This document shows positions 20,196-30,574 of a DNA stretch of 64,000 nt, piece after piece. Source of the DNA: Corallococcus sp. AS-1-6 (GTDB lineage: Bacteria; Myxococcota; Myxococcia; Myxococcales; Myxococcaceae); NCBI RefSeq assembly GCF_020037015.1, contig NZ_JAIQDE010000005.1, positions 62,001-126,000 of the forward strand, read 5' to 3'. Numbering within the stretch: the first letter of the stretch is position 1; every line of letters begins with the position of its first letter. The position numbers and the translations under genes are program-made. A model generated the notes under the pieces. The model was not told the origin of the DNA. It saw nothing but the letters and a program-made list of their open reading frames with translations, and ran no database searches.

Positions 20196-20993
20196 ATGAG
20201 CCCCAGCGAAAACGCCCCCCTCCCGCCGTCACCCCTCCGCTCCCTGCGCTGGCCGCTGGGCATCGCCGCCGCCGTGGCGCTCCTGGGAGGTTCGGGCTAC
20301 TTCCTGCTGCGCACGCCGGAGCCGCCCCCCGTCCCCACGCCCGCGGTCGCCGAGCCCACGCCTCCGGCGCCGCCCGCGCCCCCGGCGGTGCAGCTCTCCG
20401 GAACCGACGCCCGCGTGAGGGAGCTGTTGAAGGGGCTGTCCAGCGACGCGGACTTCGCGCGCTGGCTGGCCTCCGAGGACCTGGCCCGCCGCTTCGCCGC
20501 GTCCGCGAACCTGATCGCGGAAGGCCAGAGCCCGCGCATGCCCCTGTCCTTCATGGCGCCCGCCGGGACCTTCCGCGCGACAAAGCGTCACGGCCACCTG
20601 GTCACGTCGCCGGAAAGCCATACCCGTTACGACGGGGTGACCCGCGTCATCTCCTCCCTGGACGCGAAGCGGGCGGGACAGGTGTATCAGGAGCTCAAGC
20701 CGCTGCTGGACGCCGCCCACGCGGAGCTGGCCCCGCCGGGCCGGAGCCTGGACGCGACGCTGTCCCGGGCCATCGGGCGGCTCACCCGGGTCCCTGTGCC
20801 CAGGACGGCTCCGGAGCTCACGCCGAAGGGCGCGCTCTACGCCTACGCGGATCCGGACCTGGAAGCGCTGGGCGCGGCGGAGAAGCACCTGCTGCGGATG
20901 GGCCCGGAGAACATGCGCAAGGTGCAGGCGAAGCTCACCGAACTGGCGGCCGCCCTGGGCCTGCCGTCGCCGGAGCAGGCCCGCGTGCCGTAG
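20196..20993 (+). CDS. DUF3014 domain-containing membrane protein
   Basis: 265 residues. One N-terminal membrane helix (WPLGIAAAVALLGGSGYFLL), a Pro/Ala-rich spacer, then a domain with SDADFARWLASEDLARRFAASANLIAEG, HTRYDGVTRVISSLDA, YQELKPLLDAAHAELAPPG and a C-terminal LYAYADPDLEALGAAEKHLLRMGPENMRKVQAKL, matching the DUF3014 pattern. Single-pass inner-membrane protein with a periplasmic domain; function unknown. It starts 35 bases after the OmpA gene. Confidence 0.8.
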   Translation: MSPSENAPLPPSPLRSLRWPLGIAAAVALLGGSGYFLLRTPEPPPVPTPAVAEPTPPAPPAPPAVQLSGTDARVRELLKGLSSDADFARWLASEDLARRFAASANLIAEGQSPRMPLSFMAPAGTFRATKRHGHLVTSPESHTRYDGVTRVISSLDAKRAGQVYQELKPLLDAAHAELAPPGRSLDATLSRAIGRLTRVPVPRTAPELTPKGALYAYADPDLEALGAAEKHLLRMGPENMRKVQAKLTELAAALGLPSPEQARVP

Positions 20994-21043
20994 CCCTCTG
21001 ACGTGCGGTGTCTGGCTTTGAAGACACCCGCGCGCTACTCGCA

Positions 21044-21063
21044 AGGGGGGCACCGGGGCCCCC
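21044..21063 (+). terminator. GC hairpin after the DUF3014 gene
   Basis: A GGGGGC / GCCCCC stem with a loop of about six bases, about 50 bases after the DUF3014 stop and ahead of the biosynthetic operon. There is no T-run after it, so it is a weak candidate. Confidence 0.35.
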
Positions 21064-21124
21064 GCCGTGTCTACCCCTGGCGCGCTTTACGCCACGTGCT
21101 GTTCCAGGCGACTGTTCACTGGCT

Positions 21125-21145
21125 GGACGCGACCAGTCCGCGTCC
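21125..21145. promoter_or_regulatory. 7-7-7 inverted repeat upstream of the seven-gene operon
   Basis: GGACGCG at 21125-21131 and CGCGTCC at 21139-21145 form a perfect inverted repeat with a 7-base spacer. It lies about 90 bases before the first gene of the operon at 21238. Size and symmetry suit a dimeric helix-turn-helix regulator; which one is unknown. Confidence 0.45.
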
Positions 21146-21148
21146 CTG

Positions 21149-21164
21149 ATCAAGACCTCTTGAT
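21149..21164. promoter_or_regulatory. 6-4-6 inverted repeat next to the first
   Basis: ATCAAG at 21149-21154 and CTTGAT at 21159-21164 with spacer ACCT. It is AT-richer than its surroundings and ends three bases before the small open frame at 21168. Could be an operator or an RNA hairpin in the leader. Confidence 0.4.
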
Positions 21165-21167
21165 TCC

Positions 21168-21221
21168 ATGAACACGTATGCCTTTGCGCCGGCGCCCGCC
21201 GCCAGCGGCAGCATTGCGTAG
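21168..21221 (+). CDS. Possible 17-residue leader or precursor peptide
   Basis: An ATG at 21168 opens a frame reading MNTYAFAPAPAASGSIA and stops at TAG 21219-21221, 16 bases before the GTG of the first operon gene. No clear ribosome site precedes it. It could be a leader peptide, a very short precursor peptide for the downstream enzymes, or chance. Low confidence. Confidence 0.2.
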   Translation: MNTYAFAPAPAASGSIA

Positions 21222-21237
21222 CCAGAGGGGGAAGTCC

Positions 21238-21972
21238 GTGGCTGATACAGGTGGTGGCGCATCCCGGGACGAGGAGCTCGCCTCCCGTCTTGCGGCGATG
21301 GGCGTCCTGGAGACGCGGATGGCCCGGCTCGGCGCCGGCCAGCCGCCCGTGGTGATGGCAGGCCCCTTCTTCCACGCGACGGCCCCCGCCGAGGTCGAGC
21401 GCGTGCGCCAGTTCCGCGACGCCCAGTACCGCGCGCGCCTGAGCTACCTGCTGAGCCCCGAGCAGCTCCAGCTCGACTGGCGGTTGGAGCTGGACGAGCG
21501 CAGCGCGCACTTCCACGCCAGCCGCGAAGGCCAACTGCTGGGGAGCCTGCGCATCACCCCCGCCCCCTTCGAGTTCCAGGCGCTCGCCCCCACCCTGGAG
21601 GCCGGGGCGCCCCGCTTCCAGGGCTACGCGGAGTTCAGCCGGCTGGTCGTGGATCCGGACGCGCGCAGCCCCTCCGTCACGCCGCGCCTGCTCATCGCGG
21701 CCTGCACCTGGGCGATGACGGAGGGCTACGTCGGCATCGTCGGGTTGTGCCGCCGCGCGGCGCGCACCGTGTTCGAGCGCTACGGCCTGACCGCGGCCAC
21801 CGAGGAGCCGCACCACGTGCCCATGCGGGGCCCCCAGCCCTACACGCTCATGGCGGGCACCTGGCCACGGCTCATCGCCGCGAGCACCCGGATGTCCGAA
21901 CGACTCACCCGCCTCCGGCTGAATGACTCACCGGACGCCTACACCCGCTTGGTTGAGGTGGAACAGACATGA
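21238..21972 (+). CDS. GNAT-fold acyltransferase resembling AHL synthase / N-acyl amino acid synthase FeeM
   Basis: 244 residues from the GTG at 21238, chosen for the strong GAGGGGGAAG ribosome site just before it; an ATG at 21178 in the same frame has none. The core has QFRDAQYRARLSYLL, then LDERSAHFHASREGQLLGSLRITP, GYAEFSRLVVDPDARS, LLIAACTWAMTEGYVGIVGLCRRAARTVFERYGL, the arrangement of autoinducer-synthase/FeeM-like GNATs that acylate an amine from acyl-ACP. First gene of a tight operon; its stop overlaps the next start by 4 bases. Product unknown; the AHL or N-acyl amino acid assignment is inference. Confidence 0.7.
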   Translation: MADTGGGASRDEELASRLAAMGVLETRMARLGAGQPPVVMAGPFFHATAPAEVERVRQFRDAQYRARLSYLLSPEQLQLDWRLELDERSAHFHASREGQLLGSLRITPAPFEFQALAPTLEAGAPRFQGYAEFSRLVVDPDARSPSVTPRLLIAACTWAMTEGYVGIVGLCRRAARTVFERYGLTAATEEPHHVPMRGPQPYTLMAGTWPRLIAASTRMSERLTRLRLNDSPDAYTRLVEVEQT

Positions 21973-22691
21973 CCGACACGACGCAGGCCCCCTCCGGACT
22001 GGAAGCCCTGAAGCAGCGCCGCTCCCAGGTCTGGGACGAGCTGTTGGCCCAGTCCCGCTTCGTCCGCACCATCCAGCAGGGCGAGGTCACCAAGGCGCTC
22101 TACGCGCTGTATCTGATTGAGACGTACCACTACACCCGGCACAACGCCCGCAACCAGGCGCTGGTGGGCGTGCGCTGCGAGGACGACCGGCACTACCAGA
22201 AGTTCTGCTTCAACCACGCCGAGGAGGAGGTCGGCCACGAGCAGATGGCCCTGCACGACGTGGCCAGCATGGGCCTGCCGCCGGGGTTCCCCATCCCTCG
22301 CGCCCTGCCGGCGACCGAGGTCCTCATCGGGTACCTGTATTGGATCTCCTACCAGGGCAATCCCTTGCAGCGCCTGGGGTACAGCTTCTGGGCGGAGAGC
22401 TGCTACGACTACATCCGGCCGCTCCTGGGCCAGGTGCAGAAGACGCTGGGGCTCACCCCGGCGCAGATGACCTTCTTCGTCGCGCACTCGGACATCGACG
22501 CGGAGCACTCGCAGGCGGTCGACGAGATGATCGCCAAGAAGTGCAGGACGCCCGAGGACTGGGAGGACGTGGCGCAGGTGATGGAGACCAGCCTGCGGCT
22601 GACCTGGGAGATGATGGACGCGGTGGCGGACGCCTACGCGCGGCTCGCCGACGGGCGCAGTGACCGGGCCGCCTTCCTCAAGGCGCTGTGA
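21969..22691 (+). CDS. Heme-oxygenase-like diiron oxidase/oxygenase (TenA-like, HDO family)
   Basis: 240 residues, all alpha. Candidate metal ligands are grouped as in HDO enzymes: E51 and H54/H58 in LIETYHYTRHNA, H83/E86/H90 in FNHAEEEVGHE, D97, and a late HSDIDAEHSQAVDE helix. HDO proteins use two irons and O2 for C-C or C-N cleavage or desaturation of amino acids and fatty acids (for example UndA, SznF central domain, BesC). Coupled by a 4-base overlap to the upstream acyltransferase. Substrate unknown, possibly the acylated amino acid. Confidence 0.8.
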   Translation: MTDTTQAPSGLEALKQRRSQVWDELLAQSRFVRTIQQGEVTKALYALYLIETYHYTRHNARNQALVGVRCEDDRHYQKFCFNHAEEEVGHEQMALHDVASMGLPPGFPIPRALPATEVLIGYLYWISYQGNPLQRLGYSFWAESCYDYIRPLLGQVQKTLGLTPAQMTFFVAHSDIDAEHSQAVDEMIAKKCRTPEDWEDVAQVMETSLRLTWEMMDAVADAYARLADGRSDRAAFLKAL

Positions 22692-22701
22692 GCCAGCCGC
22701 C

Positions 22702-23778
22702 ATGGGCGCCTACTTCCGCCACCTGAACTATTCGCTCGGCGACGAGGACTCCAGCGTCGAGCTGCACGCCCTTCCCCCGGACGCCCGGCACGTGGTGGCC
22801 GTGGCCGGCAGCGGAGGGCGCGTGGTGCCGCTGCTCGCGCGCGCGCCCCGGAAGGTGACGTGCGTGGACATCTCCGACACGCAGCTCGCGCTCACCGAGC
22901 TGCGCATCGCCGCGCTCCGGCGACTGAATCACGCGGAGTACCTGGGCCTGCTGGGCTACGAGCCCATGTCCCCCCAGCGCCGGCTGGAGCTGCTCGCCAC
23001 CCTGCCCCTGTCCGGGTCCGCGAGGAAGGCCCTGGACCCCGTGTGGAAGGCGGTGGAGGCCGGCGAGCGCATCGTCTACCTGGGCCGCTTCGAGGGGATG
23101 CTGCGCACGCTGTCGCGCGTCGTCGGGCTGTTCACCGGCCAGCGCGGACGCAAGATGTTCGACCAGCCGGATGTCGCGGGGCAGCGCGCGTACCTGGACG
23201 CGGGCTTTCCCCGGGGCGCGTGGCGGCTGGTGCTCCTGTTGATGGGGAACTCGGCGGTGCTGAACTCGCTGCTCTACCGGGGGGACTTCCCGAAGAAGAA
23301 CCGCCCGGAGAGCGCGTTCCGCATCTACTGGGACCTCTTCGACCGGCTCTTCCGCACGATGCCCGCGCGCTCCAGCTTCTTCCTCCAACTGGTCTTCTTC
23401 GGAGAGCTCCGCTACCCGGAGGGCTATCCCATCGAGTGCGACGCCGACGTCTTCCTGGCGGCGCAGCGGGCCGCGCGCACCGCCGACATCGAATACGTCC
23501 AGGGCGACATCCTCCAGCACGTCCAGGCGCAGCGGGACGTGGACTTCGTGTCCCTCTCCGACGTGCCCTCGTTCCTCCCACCGGAGCGCGAGCGCGGCTT
23601 CCTGGAGGCGCTGAAGCCCGGCCTGGCGCCGGACGCCCTGGTCGTCACCCGGGGACACCTGCGCGTCGCGGCGCCGGAGGTCCAGGGCTACGAGGACGTC
23701 TCCGGCCGCTACACGGACGCCATCGCGCGGGAGCGCACCCAGCTCTGGCGGATCCACTTCTATCAACGACGTCCTTGA
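22702..23778 (+). CDS. DUF3419 family protein (BtaA-like 3-amino-3-carboxypropyl transferase)
   Basis: 358 residues from the ATG at 22702, 10 bases after the HDO gene. Near the N-terminus a methyltransferase-like SAM site reads VVAVAGSGGRVVPLLARAPRKVTCVDIS; later parts include LGRFEGMLRTLSRVVGLFTG, FFLQLVFFGELRYPEGYPIECD and VDFVSLSDVPSFLPP. This is the DUF3419/BtaA pattern. BtaA moves the 3-amino-3-carboxypropyl group of SAM to diacylglycerol in betaine lipid synthesis. No BtaB methyltransferase is nearby, so a homoserine ether or amine without trimethylation, or another acceptor, is likely here. Confidence 0.82.
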   Translation: MGAYFRHLNYSLGDEDSSVELHALPPDARHVVAVAGSGGRVVPLLARAPRKVTCVDISDTQLALTELRIAALRRLNHAEYLGLLGYEPMSPQRRLELLATLPLSGSARKALDPVWKAVEAGERIVYLGRFEGMLRTLSRVVGLFTGQRGRKMFDQPDVAGQRAYLDAGFPRGAWRLVLLLMGNSAVLNSLLYRGDFPKKNRPESAFRIYWDLFDRLFRTMPARSSFFLQLVFFGELRYPEGYPIECDADVFLAAQRAARTADIEYVQGDILQHVQAQRDVDFVSLSDVPSFLPPERERGFLEALKPGLAPDALVVTRGHLRVAAPEVQGYEDVSGRYTDAIARERTQLWRIHFYQRRP

Positions 23779-23791
23779 GGAGCGCCGTTCC

Positions 23792-24676
23792 ATGCATGCC
23801 GTGAAGCTGACGAAGACGTTCGATGCCCAGGCGCTGGAGGCGGCCTATCACGCCGTCCGGCGCCAGGTGGAGGCCCAGCCCGCGGGCTACCCCGGCGAAG
23901 GCCACCAGGGGTGGACCTCCATCTGTCTGCACTCCGCCACGTCGGGCGCGTCGCCGGTGCTGGAGCAGGCCCCGTACCTGCTCGACCTGCTCTCCCGTCT
24001 GGGGTTGAAGCTGCGGCTGGCGCGCCTGCTGCGCCTGGAGCCCGGCGGCGTCATCCGCGAGCACCAGGACGCGTTCCTGTCCAGGCGCATCGTCCGGCTC
24101 CACATCCCCGTCGTCACGCACCCCGACGTGGAGTTCTACGTGGGCGGCCAGCGCTGCGTCTGGGGCGCGGGGGAGTTCTGGTACGGCGACTTCTCCCTGC
24201 CGCACCACGGGGTGAACAAGAGCGGCGTGGCCCGCATCCACCTGGTGCTGGACGTGACGGCGGACGACGCGCTGCTCCACCTGTTCCCGCCCCAGCAGGT
24301 CCCTGCGTCGCTCCAGGCGCTGGGGAGCGACGACACGGAAGGAGAGCTGGATCCACGCGTCATCGAGCGCTTCGCCTTCGACTTCACCCTGCCCCAGGGC
24401 TTCAGCCTCCCGGGCACCGGGCTCGCGCCGCTGACGTCCGAGGCCCGGGGCGGCATGCGCAGGGTGGACAACGAGCTGTGCATCTTCGTCAACGATCAGC
24501 CGATGTTGAAGGCCGTGCCGGTGTCGGAGGACACGGTGGACCTGCTCGGCATGGGGCCGGAGGCGCGCCTGCGCTACACGTTCCGTGGCGAGGCCGTGCG
24601 GGAGGTGACGCTCACCGTGGGCACGACCCCGGTGTACTCGTTCGACGTGCGCCATGGCTCCGGTCAGGCTCATTGA
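23792..24676 (+). CDS. Aspartyl/asparaginyl beta-hydroxylase-like 2-oxoglutarate oxygenase
   Basis: 294 residues. Fe(II) site H91-x-D93 in VIREHQDAFLS with a distal His (H138 or H139 in LPHHGVN) and R148 in GVARIHLVLD for 2-oxoglutarate; RLHIPVVTHPDVEFYVGGQ and WGAGEFWYGDF are typical of the AspH (PF05118) jelly roll. Its last 100 residues (from about 190) form an added domain of unknown nature. It should hydroxylate a carboxylate-bearing substrate, perhaps the product of the neighbouring enzymes. Overlaps the next gene by 23 bases. Confidence 0.83.
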   Translation: MHAVKLTKTFDAQALEAAYHAVRRQVEAQPAGYPGEGHQGWTSICLHSATSGASPVLEQAPYLLDLLSRLGLKLRLARLLRLEPGGVIREHQDAFLSRRIVRLHIPVVTHPDVEFYVGGQRCVWGAGEFWYGDFSLPHHGVNKSGVARIHLVLDVTADDALLHLFPPQQVPASLQALGSDDTEGELDPRVIERFAFDFTLPQGFSLPGTGLAPLTSEARGGMRRVDNELCIFVNDQPMLKAVPVSEDTVDLLGMGPEARLRYTFRGEAVREVTLTVGTTPVYSFDVRHGSGQAH

Positions 24677-25793
24677 GCGCGCGGGGCCTCCGCCCCCGGA
24701 CGAAGCAGGCAGCGCCAGCGCGACGCTGGCGTCGAAGCTCGTCGGCCCCTACGTCGAGCGCGGCACCGAGCCCTTCATCGCGAACACCCGCCACCGCGTC
24801 CTCCTGGCCGAGGTCGACGGCGAGGTGACGCCGCTCATCGTCAACGACGGCGCGGACAGCGACTGCTACCTGACGTCGCCGTTCATCAACTACATCACCT
24901 ACGCGGAGGACTTCGCGCGCTCCGTGAAGGACCCGCGCACGCGGCGGGCGCTCCTCGCGTTCATCCGGGCCGTGCGGGCGGTCATCCGTCCCAGGGACCT
25001 GGACCGGGTCGTCTACGTCAATCACTGGATGCTGGCCACGGGGCCGGCGCTCCGCTTCACGCCGGAGCAGTTGGAGCGCCTGACGCGGGCGCTGCGCGAG
25101 CGGTTCCCCCAGCACGCCCTCGTGTTCAAGCGGGCCACCGCGGAGACGGCGGCGGCGGTGGCCGGGGAGCGCCCGGACGCGCGGCTGCACGCCATCTTCA
25201 ACCGGCAGATGTACGTGTGGCGGCACGAGCCAGGGAAGAAGCCGCCCCGGGAGTTCCGGCAGGACCGCAACCTGCTGAACCAGCACCGCGCGAACCTGCG
25301 CAGGCTCACGGCCGGCGAGCCGGGCGTCATCGACCGCCTGCGCGAGCTGTACCGGGCGCTCTACATCGACAAGTACTCCGACCATAACGCCTTCTTCACG
25401 GAGGCCTGGTTCCAGCAGGTGTTCCAGCAGGGGTTGCTGGAGGTCTACGGCATCGAGGTGGACGGCCAGCTCGCCTACTTCGTCACCTGCTTCGTCGCGG
25501 GCGATGAGCTGATCGGCTCCGTGGTGGGCCACGACCCGGTGCTGTCGCGCAAGCACGGCCTCTACCGGGCCGGGATGAGCCACCTGATGCAGCTCGCGGA
25601 GGCGCGGGGCCTGCCGCTCAACCTGAGCTCGGGCTCCGGGCAGTTCAAGCAGAAGCGCGGCGCCACGCAGCTCACCGAGTACGAGCTGCTCTGCTTCTCT
25701 CACCTGCCGTGGCGTGCAAGGCTGTCCTGGTCGCTGCTCCGACGCATCTACAACGCGGTCGGCCCCAGGGTCTTCACCGCCCTGAGCATCTGA
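24654..25793 (+). CDS. FemAB-like GNAT acyltransferase
   Basis: 379 residues. It has a PLIVNDGADSDCYLTSPFINYITYAEDF start seen in a subgroup of double-GNAT proteins, then a C-terminal GNAT half with NLLNQHRANLRRL, LYRALYIDKYSDHNAFFTEAWFQQVF, GIEVDGQLAYFVTCFVAGDELIGSVVGHDPVLSRKHGLYRAGMSHLMQLAEARGL and NLSSGSGQFKQKRGA. Related proteins (Acetyltransf_6, FemAB) transfer aminoacyl or acyl groups. Acceptor unknown; position in the operon suggests action on the same product. Confidence 0.75.
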   Translation: MAPVRLIERAGPPPPDEAGSASATLASKLVGPYVERGTEPFIANTRHRVLLAEVDGEVTPLIVNDGADSDCYLTSPFINYITYAEDFARSVKDPRTRRALLAFIRAVRAVIRPRDLDRVVYVNHWMLATGPALRFTPEQLERLTRALRERFPQHALVFKRATAETAAAVAGERPDARLHAIFNRQMYVWRHEPGKKPPREFRQDRNLLNQHRANLRRLTAGEPGVIDRLRELYRALYIDKYSDHNAFFTEAWFQQVFQQGLLEVYGIEVDGQLAYFVTCFVAGDELIGSVVGHDPVLSRKHGLYRAGMSHLMQLAEARGLPLNLSSGSGQFKQKRGATQLTEYELLCFSHLPWRARLSWSLLRRIYNAVGPRVFTALSI

Positions 25794-25816
25794 CCGCGCC
25801 TTCCGTCGAGGACCGC

Positions 25817-26452
25817 ATGCTCTACACGCCCCGCACCTTCCAGGAGTCCGACCTCCCCACGCTGCACGCGTTCATGAAGCAGCACAGCTTCGCGACCGTC
25901 ATCTCGCAGGGCGCGGGGCACAACGTCTCGCACGTGCCCCTGCTGCTGGTGCCGGGACAGGGCGACAAGGGCACGCTGATGGGGCACCTGGCGCGCGCCA
26001 ACCCGCACTGGAAGGACTTCAACGGCGAGCAGCCGGTCCTCTGCGTCTTCCACGGCCCGCACGCCTACATCTCACCCACCTGGTACAAGGTCCGGCCCGC
26101 GGTGCCGACCTGGAACTACGCGGTGGTGCACGCGCTCGGGCGGCCACGGCTCATCGACACGCCGGCGGAGCTGTCGAAGCTCATCGACGTGACGCTCGCG
26201 GAGTACGAGCCCGCGATTGGAGCCCCCAGCCATGAGGCGTACCTGCCCGACGAGCTCCGCGCGCGGATGCTGGAGCAGATCGTCGGCTTCGAGCTGCCCA
26301 TCGAAGAACTCCAGGGCAAGTTCAAGCTGGGCCAGAACCGCTCCGCGGAGGACCAGGCGGGGATGATGGAAGCCCTCGCGGGCCAGGGCGGCGACGCGCT
26401 GGCCCTGCTCGAGTTGATGCGCGAGCGCGCCCGCGCGCGCGGAAGACCCTGA
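25817..26452 (+). CDS. PaiB-like FMN-binding protein
   Basis: 211 residues from the ATG at 25817. The sequence MLYTPRTFQESDLPTLHAFMKQHSFATVIS, SHVPLLLVPG, GHLARANPHWKDF, CVFHGPHAYISPTWY, VPTWNYAVVHALG and GKFKLGQNRS is the full PaiB/negative-regulator flavin-binding split-barrel family. Some members are annotated as transcription repressors, but the fold is that of flavin reductases or oxidases; in this operon an enzymatic role is as likely. No HTH is visible. Starts 23 bases after the GNAT gene. Confidence 0.9.
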   Translation: MLYTPRTFQESDLPTLHAFMKQHSFATVISQGAGHNVSHVPLLLVPGQGDKGTLMGHLARANPHWKDFNGEQPVLCVFHGPHAYISPTWYKVRPAVPTWNYAVVHALGRPRLIDTPAELSKLIDVTLAEYEPAIGAPSHEAYLPDELRARMLEQIVGFELPIEELQGKFKLGQNRSAEDQAGMMEALAGQGGDALALLELMRERARARGRP

Positions 26453-26481
26453 CGCAGTCCCTCTCTCCGGAGGCCCCGCAC

Positions 26482-27894
26482 ATGGCCAGGCAGCGCATCC
26501 TCACCCCTTCCGAACCGCTGAAGCGGACGTGGGCGCTGAGCGCCGTGGACGTCGCGCTGAAGGACATGTTCGTGAGCTTCGCGGCGGTCTTCGGCGGGAG
26601 GATCGACACCGAGCGCTTCACCCAGGCCCTGCGCCAGACGCTCATCCGCTATCCGTTCTTCCACGGCACGCTGAGGCAGCAGGAGGACGCGGTGCTCGTC
26701 CTCTGCCACCACCCGCCCCGGCCCGGCACCCGCGAGGGCATGAGCGCCGTGGGCCTGGACCTCGACGACGTGGACGCGCCCTTCCCCACGCGGGACCGGC
26801 GCCTGCTCTACACGGGGGACTTCGTCTCCAGGCTGGTCCCCGGGAAGCCCCCGGTCCACGACGGGCGCCGCCCCCTGCTGCACCTGAAGCTCACGCACTA
26901 CCGCGACGCCTCCGTGGTCGGCCTGTGCTGGAACCACGCGCTGACGGACCTGCACGGCATCTACGACTTCCTCCGGGCAATCTCGGAGGCCTACAGCCAC
27001 CCGGGCCGCGACCCCGGCGCGCCCCCCGTGTTCGACCGGAGGGACATCTGGCGACAGTTGGAAGCGCCGGGAGAAGCGGCCCGTGGCCAGCCTTCGCGGG
27101 AGGGGCGGCACGGCATCGTCCACATCTCACGCGCGAAGGCCGCGCTGGGCATCGCGCGCTACCTGAAGCAGGCCGTGACGGATGCCGTGCCCGTCTGCCT
27201 CTTCCTGGACGAGGACGGCGTCGACGCCATCAAGGCCCAGGCGCTGACCGCCGGCACGAAGGTGTCCACCAACGACGTGGTCAACGCGACGCTGCTGAAG
27301 TTCTTCGGCGAGTGCAACCGCGACCCGCGAGCGCCCCCGGACGTGGGCCTGTACTTCCCCATCGACGTCCGCGAGCTGCTGGGCGCCCCGCCCGGGTCCG
27401 TGGCCAACTGCCTGGGCAACGCCTCCGCGGTGCTGCGCCGCGCGGACCTGTGGAGTTCGAGCGTCACCGAGCTGGCCATGCGCAACCGCGCCGTGGTGTC
27501 CGCCTATGGCCAGACGCAGTTGCGGGATGACCTGCACTGGGCGGACTACTGGCGGCGCCATACGAGCCAGGGCAGCGTGTATCACCACTGGCTGCTCGGA
27601 CGGGACCGCGTCTATTCCTCCAACTGGACCAGCCAGGAGCTGGCGCGCGTGAGCTTCGACGGCGCGGCCTTCGTCACGCTGCTGCGAAGCTCCCAGCTCA
27701 ACACGTGGCTGCTGCTACCGGCCTTCCACAGCACGGTCCTGCCCCGGATGGAGGACGGCCGGATGAAGCAGGTGGTGCGGGTGGCCGTGCGGCGCGAGCA
27801 CTTCCGGACGCTCGCGCGGCACCTGCGGGAATGGCCTCACGTGCAGGAGGCCATCCGCCTGGACACCGGCAGCTCCGCCAGCGCCGGGTCCTGA
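26482..27894 (+). CDS. BAHD-like / condensation-fold acyltransferase
   Basis: 470 residues. The catalytic HxxxD is H152-A-L-T-D156 in GLCWNHALTDLHGIYDF. The plan of two CoA-acyltransferase-like lobes is visible: LKRTWALSAVDV at the start, TLIRYPFFHGTLR, then KVSTNDVVNATLLKFFGECNRD and LYFPIDVRELLGAPPGSVANCLGN, the last two close to the plant transferase (BAHD, PF02458) family; the classic DFGWG is not seen, a VYSSNWTSQEL segment may take its place. It would ester- or amide-link an acyl group. Last gene of the operon, overlapping the convergent gene by 58 bases. Confidence 0.72.
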   Translation: MARQRILTPSEPLKRTWALSAVDVALKDMFVSFAAVFGGRIDTERFTQALRQTLIRYPFFHGTLRQQEDAVLVLCHHPPRPGTREGMSAVGLDLDDVDAPFPTRDRRLLYTGDFVSRLVPGKPPVHDGRRPLLHLKLTHYRDASVVGLCWNHALTDLHGIYDFLRAISEAYSHPGRDPGAPPVFDRRDIWRQLEAPGEAARGQPSREGRHGIVHISRAKAALGIARYLKQAVTDAVPVCLFLDEDGVDAIKAQALTAGTKVSTNDVVNATLLKFFGECNRDPRAPPDVGLYFPIDVRELLGAPPGSVANCLGNASAVLRRADLWSSSVTELAMRNRAVVSAYGQTQLRDDLHWADYWRRHTSQGSVYHHWLLGRDRVYSSNWTSQELARVSFDGAAFVTLLRSSQLNTWLLLPAFHSTVLPRMEDGRMKQVVRVAVRREHFRTLARHLREWPHVQEAIRLDTGSSASAGS

Positions 27895-29081
27895 AACAGG
27901 GGGACGTCCTCGCGGAAGACATTCCGCTCCACGGGAGGCGGCGGCTTCATCAGGTTCTGGGTGAGCCAGCCCAATCCCTGACGCTGGAGGGCGGAGCGGT
28001 GCCAGATCCACGCCTGCACGTGGACGGGCTGCGCGCCAACGCTCATCTTCGGGCCCGCCGTGGTCATCCCCATGTTGACCGCCTTGCAGCCGTGCTCGAT
28101 GGCGTAGCGGACGACCTCGTACAGCAGACGGAAGTACACGCCCTCCTCCAGGGCAGCCTCGCGGGAGAAGCCGGTGCAGGAGAAGCGGAGCATGGGACCG
28201 TCGAGGAACAGCAGGCCGAACCCGGCGATGCTGTCATCGGGCCGGCGGAGCAACATCACCTTCGCCTCGGGCAGGTCGCTGGTGGAGGCGAAGAAGCCTT
28301 CGGTGAGCACCAGCCGCCGGTACTGGGTGGCGCGGTCGTAGAGGGTCCGCCACAGCGTCGTCAGCTCCGGAGCCAGTGACGCGAACTGCTCCAGGACCTC
28401 CACGCGAAGCGAAGCCGTCTCCTTCATGCACCCCGCCAGCCGCGCGCGGTAGCGGGCGCGCATGTGGGCCTTGTAGTCATTGAACGAGGCGAACGGCACC
28501 GGCACGACGAACGCAGCGGGGAGCGGCGAGGGCACGAAGCCCCCCTGGCGGAGCACCTCCACGGCGCCGGGCGCGGCGGCCGTCTCGATGTCCCGGATGA
28601 CGACCAGCGACGCGCGTTGACGCTCCGCCTCCGCTTGCGCCCAGCGCGCCACGGTCGTGATGGCCTCGGCGCTCGTCAGGGAGGAGCGCACCGGGAACCC
28701 CACCCCGGCGGGGTTGCCCACTTCGATGACGCCGTACTTCAGGAAGCGGGGGGCGGCGCCTCGCACCAGGTGGACGGCCTGCTGGAGCCGTGGATTGCCC
28801 AGGTCCGCCCCGTCGATGGTGTTGCGATAGGTGGCGGCGACGCCCACCGGCTGCCCGCGCCCGTCCTGCAAGAGGATGGGCACCTGATGGAAGCCTTCTA
28901 TCTGGATGTGCTGGGCGCACTTCAGGAAGCGCTGGCTGAGATTGAAGTGGCCGTCCGGCACCCAGCAATCCCAATCACGCCCGCCGCCGTCCTGCCAGAA
29001 CGACTCACCGGCCTCTCGGACCGTCACACCGTCAGAGCCATGCTCCACGGATGAAAGCCTCTCGGCACTGCTACCGCGCAT
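27837..29081 (-). CDS. FemAB-like GNAT (peptidoglycan-bridge-type acyltransferase)
   Basis: 414 residues from the ATG at 29081, with GGAGG six bases upstream. Segments RFLKCAQHIQIEGFHQVPILLQDGRGQPVGVAATYRN, FVVPVPFASFNDYKAHMRARYRARLAGCMKE, LYDRATQYRRLVLTEGFFASTSD and YAIEHGCKAVNMGMTTAGPKMSVGAQ match the Acetyltransf_6/PF04339 group. Its 3' end runs 58 bases into the BAHD-like gene on the other strand. A second enzyme of the same broad class as 24654-25793, so it may belong to the same pathway. Confidence 0.78.
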   Translation of the reverse strand: MRGSSAERLSSVEHGSDGVTVREAGESFWQDGGGRDWDCWVPDGHFNLSQRFLKCAQHIQIEGFHQVPILLQDGRGQPVGVAATYRNTIDGADLGNPRLQQAVHLVRGAAPRFLKYGVIEVGNPAGVGFPVRSSLTSAEAITTVARWAQAEAERQRASLVVIRDIETAAAPGAVEVLRQGGFVPSPLPAAFVVPVPFASFNDYKAHMRARYRARLAGCMKETASLRVEVLEQFASLAPELTTLWRTLYDRATQYRRLVLTEGFFASTSDLPEAKVMLLRRPDDSIAGFGLLFLDGPMLRFSCTGFSREAALEEGVYFRLLYEVVRYAIEHGCKAVNMGMTTAGPKMSVGAQPVHVQAWIWHRSALQRQGLGWLTQNLMKPPPPVERNVFREDVPLFQDPALAELPVSRRMASCT

Positions 29082-29229
29082 GTCATTCCTCCGCGGACAT
29101 TGGAGGCGGAACAGTGCCCTGGCGCCCCGTGGCGCGGGAAGGCTCCGGCGGGTTGCGAAAGGGCTGTCACGAAAACCAACCGTGATATCGCGCGCATGTC
29201 AGGGGCGCCCCGCAGGATGGGCGTCCCCC

Positions 29230-30453
29230 ATGTCTCATTCATCCCAGCCCGTCTCGTCCCGGGAGCGCGTCGCCCTGGTGGATGCCCTGCGCGGCTTCGC
29301 GCTGTGTGGCGTCTTCGTCTCCAACGCCTTTCTCTGGTTCGGGGGCCGCAACCTGCTCCCGCCCGAGCAACTCCAGGCCCTGGGTTCGCCGCTCCCGGAG
29401 TTGGTGACAGGCGCCCTCTTCCTCTTCTTCGTGGCGCACAAGTTCCTCAACCTCTTCGGCTTCCTCTTCGGGCTGGGCTTTTCCCTCCAGTTGTCGCGAG
29501 CGGAGGCCCGAGGCGCCTCGCACGTCCCCGTCCACCTGCGGCGGATGGGGGTGCTGCTGTGCTTCGGTGCGGTGCACCTGCTGGGGCTCTGGATGGGAGA
29601 CATCCTCCACCTGTACGCGCTGGCGGGAGTCCTGCTGCTGTTCTTCGCCGGGAGGTCGGACCGGACGCTGGGGTGCTGGGCCGGGCTGTCGCTGGGGGTG
29701 ATGCCCTTCCTCGTGCTCGCGCTCCAGCTCTGGGGACCGGGGGCCGGGGCGGAGGTCGCGAAGGCCCACGAGACGGCGCTGCGGGCGGAGCTGCTCGCGG
29801 CGCTCTCCAGCGACTCGTTCTGGACGGCGCAGGCGGGAAACGCCCGCTACGTCTGGGAGACGTGGTTCAGCACCACCCGGGTGCCCCTCTGGCTCGCGCT
29901 CATCCTCGGGCGCTTCTTGCTGGGGCTTCTGGCAGGGCGTCACCGGTTGTTGCAGGACGTGGAGCGCCACCGTCCCCTGCTCCGCCGGATGGCGTGGTGG
30001 GGCCTGGGCCTGGGAGGCCTGCTCAACGCCGGAGGCCTGCTGGCGTTCCAGTGGAGAGCCCAGGGGCTCGATCCCGCGAACCACGCCGGCCTGTTCCTCC
30101 TGATGGCGCTCCAGGAGCTGGGCTATGTGCTGCTGGGCGCCGCGTACCTCGCGGGCTTCACGCTCCTCTTCCAGCGCGAGCGCTGGCGCCGGGTGCTGAC
30201 GGTGCTCGCTCCCGTGGGCCGCATGGCGCTGACGAACTACCTGATGCAGACGGTGCTGAGCCTGTGCCTCTACAACGGCTGGGGCCTGGGGCTCATCGGC
30301 CGCCTGCCGCCGTCACAGTGTGTCGCCATCGCGCTGGGCGTCTTCGGCGTGCAGGTGCTGCTGAGCCACGCATGGTTGAAACACTTCCGCTTCGGCCCCG
30401 CGGAGTGGCTGTGGCGCTCACTCACCTACGGCAGGCTTCAGCCCCTGCGCTGA
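29230..30453 (+). CDS. DUF418 family membrane protein
   Basis: 407 residues from the ATG at 29230. SRERVALVDALRGFALCGVFVSNA at the start, about ten membrane segments, FGFLFGLGFSLQLSRAEARG, and the C-terminal GRMALTNYLMQTVLSLCLYNGWGLGL are hallmarks of DUF418 (YeiB-like) proteins. Their function is unknown; they share a plan with membrane acyltransferases. Divergent from the GNAT gene across 148 bases. Confidence 0.9.
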   Translation: MSHSSQPVSSRERVALVDALRGFALCGVFVSNAFLWFGGRNLLPPEQLQALGSPLPELVTGALFLFFVAHKFLNLFGFLFGLGFSLQLSRAEARGASHVPVHLRRMGVLLCFGAVHLLGLWMGDILHLYALAGVLLLFFAGRSDRTLGCWAGLSLGVMPFLVLALQLWGPGAGAEVAKAHETALRAELLAALSSDSFWTAQAGNARYVWETWFSTTRVPLWLALILGRFLLGLLAGRHRLLQDVERHRPLLRRMAWWGLGLGGLLNAGGLLAFQWRAQGLDPANHAGLFLLMALQELGYVLLGAAYLAGFTLLFQRERWRRVLTVLAPVGRMALTNYLMQTVLSLCLYNGWGLGLIGRLPPSQCVAIALGVFGVQVLLSHAWLKHFRFGPAEWLWRSLTYGRLQPLR

Positions 30454-30574
30454 TGCCAACGGATGAACGGTCGCACGCCCGTGGCAGCGCGGCGGGTGAC
30501 AGGCCTTCGCACCACAGCCTGGTTGTTTCGCGGACTGGCGGGAGCCACTCCCACGGCACAGCTTTGATGCGGCC

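Follow-up and report, generated by a model that had tools for sequence, protein, structure and literature searches.

A defined nine-gene island in Corallococcus joins a FeeM-like acyltransferase and a diiron oxidase to a divergent DUF3419 enzyme

We analysed a 64,000-nucleotide stretch of the genome of Corallococcus sp. AS-1-6 (contig NZ_JAIQDE010000005.1, positions 62,001 to 126,000), referred to below as the window, in which an initial annotation had described an uncharacterised seven-gene operon. The seven plus-strand open reading frames and one convergent minus-strand frame are present at the positions reported there. On the plus strand lie A (21178..21972, with a GTG at 21238 as an alternative start), a FeeM-family or N-acylhomoserine lactone (AHL) synthase-like N-acyltransferase; B (21969..22691), a heme-oxygenase-like diiron oxidase (HDO); C (22702..23778), a divergent DUF3419 enzyme of the BtaA superfamily, probably dependent on S-adenosylmethionine (SAM, or AdoMet); D (23792..24676), an AspH-like Fe(II)/2-oxoglutarate oxygenase; E (24654..25793), a FemAB-type GNAT and candidate aminoacyl-tRNA-dependent transferase; F (25817..26452), of the PaiB/NohD/piperazate-synthase superfamily; and G (26482..27894), a BAHD/PapA5-like acyltransferase. 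Converging on G from the minus strand is H (27837..29081), a second FemAB-like GNAT, which overlaps it by 58 bases; divergent from H stands I (29230..30453, plus strand), a DUF418 (YeiB-like) membrane protein. The tight packing described for A to G was found again: A and B overlap by 4 bases (ATGA) and D and E by 23, and the gaps are 10 (B/C), 13 (C/D), 23 (E/F), and 29 bases (F/G). All seven proteins also score above curated Pfam cut-offs (Pfam results are given below as bit score/curated cut-off).

The unit extends beyond the operon. In a blastn comparison with the empty site of a sister species (G028), where 114 bases separate the flanking genes, the window is homologous up to 20994 and again from 30467. 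These clean ends define a block that is present or absent as a whole, 20995..30466, and thus a unit of nine genes here: A to H, with H placed inside by this comparison, and the DUF418 gene I. What was annotated as a seven-gene operon is therefore real and ordered as far as A to G are concerned, and too short by two genes. Among the operon-less Corallococcus genomes the site was inspected in G028, G029, G018, G024, and G025 (G023, G027, and G030 were left out). It is empty in G029 as well, where 20985-30502 is missing; G024 and G025 keep only the right-hand neighbour at the site; and G018 retains only F, with 83% protein identity (L088 4672-5289), which may be a relic or have a protective role. 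The left flank is different in G017 and G022. The GC content of the island (70.1%, against 73.0% to the left and 70.5% to the right in the window) gives no foreign mark. Two-component genes to the left of A were rejected as members, since they also stand beside empty sites. In G026 a LodA-like amino-acid oxidase gene and an FAD oxidoreductase gene lie directly 3′ of G (L026 12929-16101); this LodA/LodB pair was rejected too, being absent after G in G021. The sister species with an empty site offer natural comparison strains.

Conservation of the island was assessed in 96 Myxococcaceae genomes, 16 of them Corallococcus (that of the window included). At E ≤ 1e-5, C is found in nine of the 96 genomes and A in eight. 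The order A to G is conserved in half of the Corallococcus genomes (eight of 16, counting the window's and also G021, whose operon falls on two contigs), at two different loci, so that co-occurrence is not confined to one strain, the outcome that would have refuted the initial proposal. Six of the eight carriers have H and the DUF418 gene after the operon; in the five other than the window's, H is 89-92% identical and the DUF418 protein 84-86% over its main segment. In G026 and G021, where the operon occupies the other locus, the A to G proteins are 58-81% identical, and no H or DUF418 relative was found in the examined flank of the operon, the whole genomes not having been searched for either. 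The 52 dN/dS ratios (nonsynonymous to synonymous substitution), obtained by comparing each of the nine genes in the window with five or six orthologues, range from 0.11 to 0.50 (NG86 method, which is rough in GC-rich DNA; G021 left out), and the island genes are under purifying selection. A search of a genome collection returned three loci, all Corallococcus, and the closest named relative found is C. interemptor (92% for the C protein). Among 33 viral-contig stretches that matched a pattern, none is a relative of C.

The recurring core of the set is A-B-C. The gene for C occurs at 10 loci in the 96 genomes, and a B-type HDO gene adjoins it at all 10. Outside Myxococcota, where the distribution comes from plasmid records, an eleventh locus lies on a 42.7-kb plasmid of Deefgea piscis (Betaproteobacteria); here B again adjoins C (11 out of 11), and the core consists of an A-like protein (38% over 134 residues), an HDO (54%), and a DUF3419 protein (49%), followed by an AdoMet-decarboxylase-family gene. 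A relative of A adjoins B at 10 of the 11 loci, the exception being G056 (L029). In a second cluster of G019 (L030), the gene order is FemAB-like GNAT, AdoMet-decarboxylase-family gene, A, B, C, and FemAB-like GNAT. The A relatives in L030 and Deefgea fall below the FeeM cut-off and are tied to A by similarity (31% and 38%, respectively). The G056 cluster contains D, B, C, and F, with the D and F relatives at 41-42%; further off are genes for an AMP ligase, an acyl carrier protein, two amidohydrolases, and an alpha/beta hydrolase.

This distribution bears on whether the island has one function. The A-B-C core might make one compound, with D to I being independent modifying or protective genes, and on the Deefgea plasmid the core does occur apart from D-H relatives, as it does in L030 apart from D, F, and G, while F persists alone in G018. 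However, A to G stand in the same order in all eight operon-carrying Corallococcus genomes and at both loci, the 4- and 23-base overlaps suggest translational coupling, and D and F accompany B and C in G056. We regard a division into two or more separate functions as unlikely.

The SpeD family (AdoMet decarboxylases) is linked to two of the A-B-C clusters, with Pfam E-values of 1.1e-20 in L030 and 2e-23 in the Deefgea cluster (L047); against the NCBIfam AdoMet-decarboxylase equivalog (cut-off 75.65), the Deefgea gene scores 80.8, above the cut-off, and the L030 gene 72.9, just below it. Each of the 16 Corallococcus genomes has a gene for AdoMet decarboxylase that lies away from the cluster, and the window's cluster should therefore have access to decarboxylated SAM. 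A pairing of C with SpeD, as in L030 and L047, would parallel MccD and MccE of microcin C, which combine aminocarboxypropyl transfer with a decarboxylase, although SpeD is absent from the cluster in the window and, in the accessible part of the same source, BtaA is apparently not homologous to MccD (PMC10491745).

For A, the initial annotation had proposed an AHL synthase or FeeM-like acyltransferase. The second label holds better: A scores above the FeeM cut-off (30.5/27) and below that of Autoind_synth (18.6/24). It carries EFSRL, an ExxR-type motif. The motif and the FeeM score are what A shares with long-chain N-acyl amino acid synthases of the FeeM type and AHL synthases; the Autoind_synth score, and the lack of any match to A in NCBIfam or the Protein Data Bank (PDB), set it apart from them. 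In the G056 cluster, the gene beside C in A's place encodes a distant relative of OlsF, GlsB, and OlsB (OlsF E-value 4e-15; 55 bits against an equivalog cut-off of 620; no Pfam or PDB match). The presence of a different, if distantly matched, amino-acid N-acyltransferase in A's position argues for N-acylation as a step of the pathway, which is the chief conclusion on function drawn from the comparison.

B belongs to Haem_oxygenas_2 (79.6/28.9) and has the three-histidine/three-carboxylate ligand set predicted for an HDO: E87, H90, E143, H173, D177, and H180 are invariant in seven aligned sequences, B included. Its closest PDB match is 3dde (E = 5.1e-76), of unassigned function, which distinguishes B from HDO biosynthetic oxidases such as MboA, as does a last histidine three rather than five residues after the aspartate. 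The order of the ligands is that of MboA, as far as the ligand set is given in the available text of PMC13185094, according to which HDOs appear specialised for amino-acid substrates. Relatives of B also occur in other settings. In G010 an HDO gene overlaps a BAHD-type acyltransferase gene (L084 7916-9792), with no DUF3419 gene beside it in the stretch examined; in G105 an HDO relative lies beside GH3-like and ketosynthase-III-like genes, with no C in the stretch examined; and a second HDO in the region of the G056 cluster is fused to a cupin domain (L086 11100-12404).

C scores well above the DUF3419 cut-off (83.7/28.2) and gives a Methyltransf_25 match of 3e-5 that is below its cut-off. A search of 195 Myxococcota genomes gave a match in 71. 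In a tree of five C proteins from core clusters, another two from Corallococcus, and 19 other DUF3419 proteins (with the rest of the matches left out, and no verified BtaA among those included), C forms its own clade, with support of 1.0 and a long branch, and is 17-28% identical to the 19 others. C shares D56, which stands where a SAM site has its acidic residue, with at least nine of 10 compared DUF3419 proteins; other invariant positions differ, and C has W349 where eight of the 10 have D. Thus C resembles BtaA, the diacylglyceryl-homoserine synthase, in its DUF3419 score and weak methyltransferase-fold signals, but differs in its separate clade, in some changed invariant positions, and in having no BtaB partner that we could find. 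Apart from C itself, Pfam and NCBIfam identify no methyltransferase among the nine island proteins. For these reasons we rejected a betaine lipid as the leading interpretation, and with it that part of the earlier product proposal. An azetidine-2-carboxylate synthase was also considered for C and dropped: C has no PDB match, and AzeJ and VioH are class I methyltransferase-like enzymes with motifs of their own, in the part of PMC11794875 that is available.

A broader lipid interpretation would have C act like BtaA and join homoserine to a lipid, with A or G acylating, D hydroxylating a chain, E and H adding an amino acid as happens in aminoacylated lipids, and the DUF418 protein remodelling or exporting the resulting membrane amino-lipid. 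Membership of C in the BtaA family, the distant relationship of the A substitute in G056 to ornithine- and glycine-lipid acyltransferases, a weak similarity of H to LPG_synthase_C (E = 0.011), and a DUF418 membrane protein inside the island are all consistent with this. Against it stand the separate clade of C and its low identity to other DUF3419 proteins, the failure to find a BtaB-like methyltransferase in the island, and the affinities of D, whose closest PDB match is L-proline cis-4-hydroxylase (1.1e-9) and which reaches only 21 of 500 bits in the NCBIfam equivalog for the lipid A hydroxylase LpxO. Moreover, HDOs and PaiB/NohD-like enzymes are not known from membrane-lipid synthesis. An amino-lipid therefore seems to us an improbable product.

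The description of D as AspH-like is upheld: the protein matches Asp_Arg_Hydrox (63.1/22.6), and an HxD motif, a distal histidine, and an arginine are kept in all three aligned sequences, as predicted for an AspH-type 2-oxoglutarate oxygenase. G matches the BAHD Transferase family (30.4/22.7), with its HxxxD motif intact, as previously read (HALTD), and I matches DUF418 (156/23.6).

Of the two GNATs, E scores above the Acetyltransf_6 cut-off (28.1/22) and H, the second FemAB-like gene noted earlier, below it (18.5/22); H is also 21-24% identical to the two GNATs of L030. E has longer paralogues, about 30% identical; Pfam finds no GNAT domain in the two that were scanned, and both carry a C-terminal DHHA1, an AlaRS-type domain, above its cut-off. 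These long paralogues, which are often in tandem in Myxococcaceae (for example L139 1384-3258 and L140 1360-3252, in open frames of 481-833 residues), are candidate alanyl-tRNA-dependent transferases, and the DHHA1 domain in them makes use of aminoacyl-tRNA plausible for E. Use of tRNA by E or H is putative, and the other enzymes of the island form a different set from those known for the valanimycin, pacidamycin, and dehydrophos pathways. What these pathways have in common with the island is the presence of GNAT-fold transferases, and the accessible part of PMC12945691 describes GNAT-fold aminoacyl-tRNA transferases acting in other natural-product pathways.

F matches FMN_bind_2 (173.3/22.4). 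Its PDB matches are PaiB (6.2e-33), NohD (9.9e-33), and, as the nearest piperazate synthase, 9kea (LnzB, 4.8e-28). The initial annotation called F a flavoprotein, a label that we abandon: according to the available portions of the literature, PaiB and the piperazate synthases, relatives with solved structures, are heme proteins (a third, NohD, is known from PDB molecule names only). His57, Asn62, Thr98, and the lysine of an FKL motif are kept in five aligned sequences, F included, and by positional offset correspond approximately to the residues His61, Asn66, Thr102, and Lys173 that those portions give for SbPZS and PaiB. F thus shares with PaiB, NohD, and the piperazate synthases both family and heme-site residues, and probably binds heme; unlike a piperazate synthase, it keeps the heme histidine without the Asp177/Lys178 pair, which reads QN at the approximate offset position.

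An alternative is a route resembling that of valanimycin, in which B would N-hydroxylate a SAM-derived amine, E or H would aminoacylate it from aminoacyl-tRNA, and F would cleave or rearrange the N-O bond at heme to give an imine or N-N product. F is about equally near to PaiB and to NohD, the latter named in the PDB as an N-hydroxylamine dehydratase, and further from the piperazate synthases; its heme-site counterparts fit, and VlmA, which has the GNAT fold and depends on tRNA, acts on isobutylhydroxylamine (PMC12945691, available part). Conversely, the Asp-Lys pair reads QN in F by positional offset, PaiB binds heme without N-N activity as far as the accessible text goes, and HDOs can also desaturate and cleave C-C bonds (PMC13185094, available part). 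Two A-B-C clusters (L030 and Deefgea) yielded no relative of F, and no NohD paper was found among the literature matches listed. On balance, this hydroxylamine or N-N logic is quite doubtful.

From the genes, their families and retained metal and catalytic residues, co-inheritance, the island ends, the A-B-C core, the replacement of A, and the SpeD linkage, we infer the reactions, their order, and the product as follows. The reading that we favour, at a probability of roughly 45%, is that the island encodes a pathway independent of nonribosomal peptide synthetases (NRPS) and polyketide synthases (PKS), leading to an oxidised, N-acylated metabolite that derives from an amino acid and includes a unit from SAM. 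A would transfer a fatty acyl group onto an amine of the SAM-derived unit; B would use its diiron centre to oxidise the amine or side chain; D would hydroxylate; E, and perhaps H, would transfer an amino acid from aminoacyl-tRNA; F would act at heme on an N-oxygenated intermediate; G would acylate a hydroxyl; and the DUF418 protein would serve at the membrane. As had been pointed out, there is no NRPS or PKS gene, and none occurs among all nine island genes. The acylated, oxidised amino-acid-type product proposed earlier thus agrees with the conserved enzyme set once its betaine-lipid part is removed.

Several observations weigh against this proposal. The transfer activity of C is assumed from DUF3419 membership, a sequence search of the PDB gave no solved relative of C, and structure models have a mean pLDDT (predicted local distance difference test) of 44.6 for C (four sequences) and 39.6 for A (three sequences). 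The A substitute in G056 is a weak match only. The window's own cluster lacks SpeD, and since SpeD homologues may instead be ornithine or arginine decarboxylases (PMC10407285, available part), the linkage need not point to SAM at all. We found no D-H relative within 25 kb around the Deefgea core and no D-G relative around the L030 core, so those steps would not be obligatory; F, being alone at the G018 site, may have a role of its own. Finally, the DHHA1 argument for E lies in its paralogues and not in E itself, and H is below its family cut-off.

A more far-reaching version, to which we give a low probability, is a new NRPS-free class of pathway in which a novel type of DUF3419 transferase would place a SAM-derived aminocarboxypropyl or aminopropyl unit, A, as a relative of quorum-sensing synthases, would N-acylate and B N-oxygenate it, and coupling to an amino acid from aminoacyl-tRNA and N-O processing by the PaiB-family heme protein would yield an acylated metabolite of the N-N, imine, or hydroxylamine type, which plasmids and islands would have carried between phyla.

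The families are known, but in the literature that we searched we found no description of their combination or of a DUF3419 clade tied to an HDO. That literature consisted mostly of papers outside subscription, and the enzyme set does not appear in the titles and abstract openings among the matches listed; we likewise found none on an HDO together with FeeM or an autoinducer synthase. The island is a defined, removable block of genes, and its three-gene core of FeeM-like acyltransferase, HDO, and divergent DUF3419 protein is both searchable and testable. Were the favoured pathway correct, DUF3419 would have a role outside betaine lipids, HDO chemistry would be joined to acyltransferases of the quorum-signal type, and metabolites of this kind would be among those overlooked by rules centred on NRPS and PKS.

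Plasmids hold further relatives of B. Several Pseudoalteromonas plasmid records have a B-like HDO inside a gene annotated as an AMP-binding protein, which suggests HDO-adenylation fusions. Twenty-three Pseudomonas plasmid records match B; in the one inspected, from Pseudomonas coronafaciens (L048 7108-12165), genes for an adenylate-forming ligase-like protein, a small GNAT, an HDO (35% to B), an FMN reductase, an EamA transporter, and a hydrolase lie near anthranilate-synthase-like and LuxR genes. A looser pairing of GNAT and HDO is thus seen on this plasmid and on one from Agarilytica: the Pseudomonas GNAT has no Pfam match and is barely like A (E = 0.009), and the Agarilytica GNAT scores above the FeeM cut-off.

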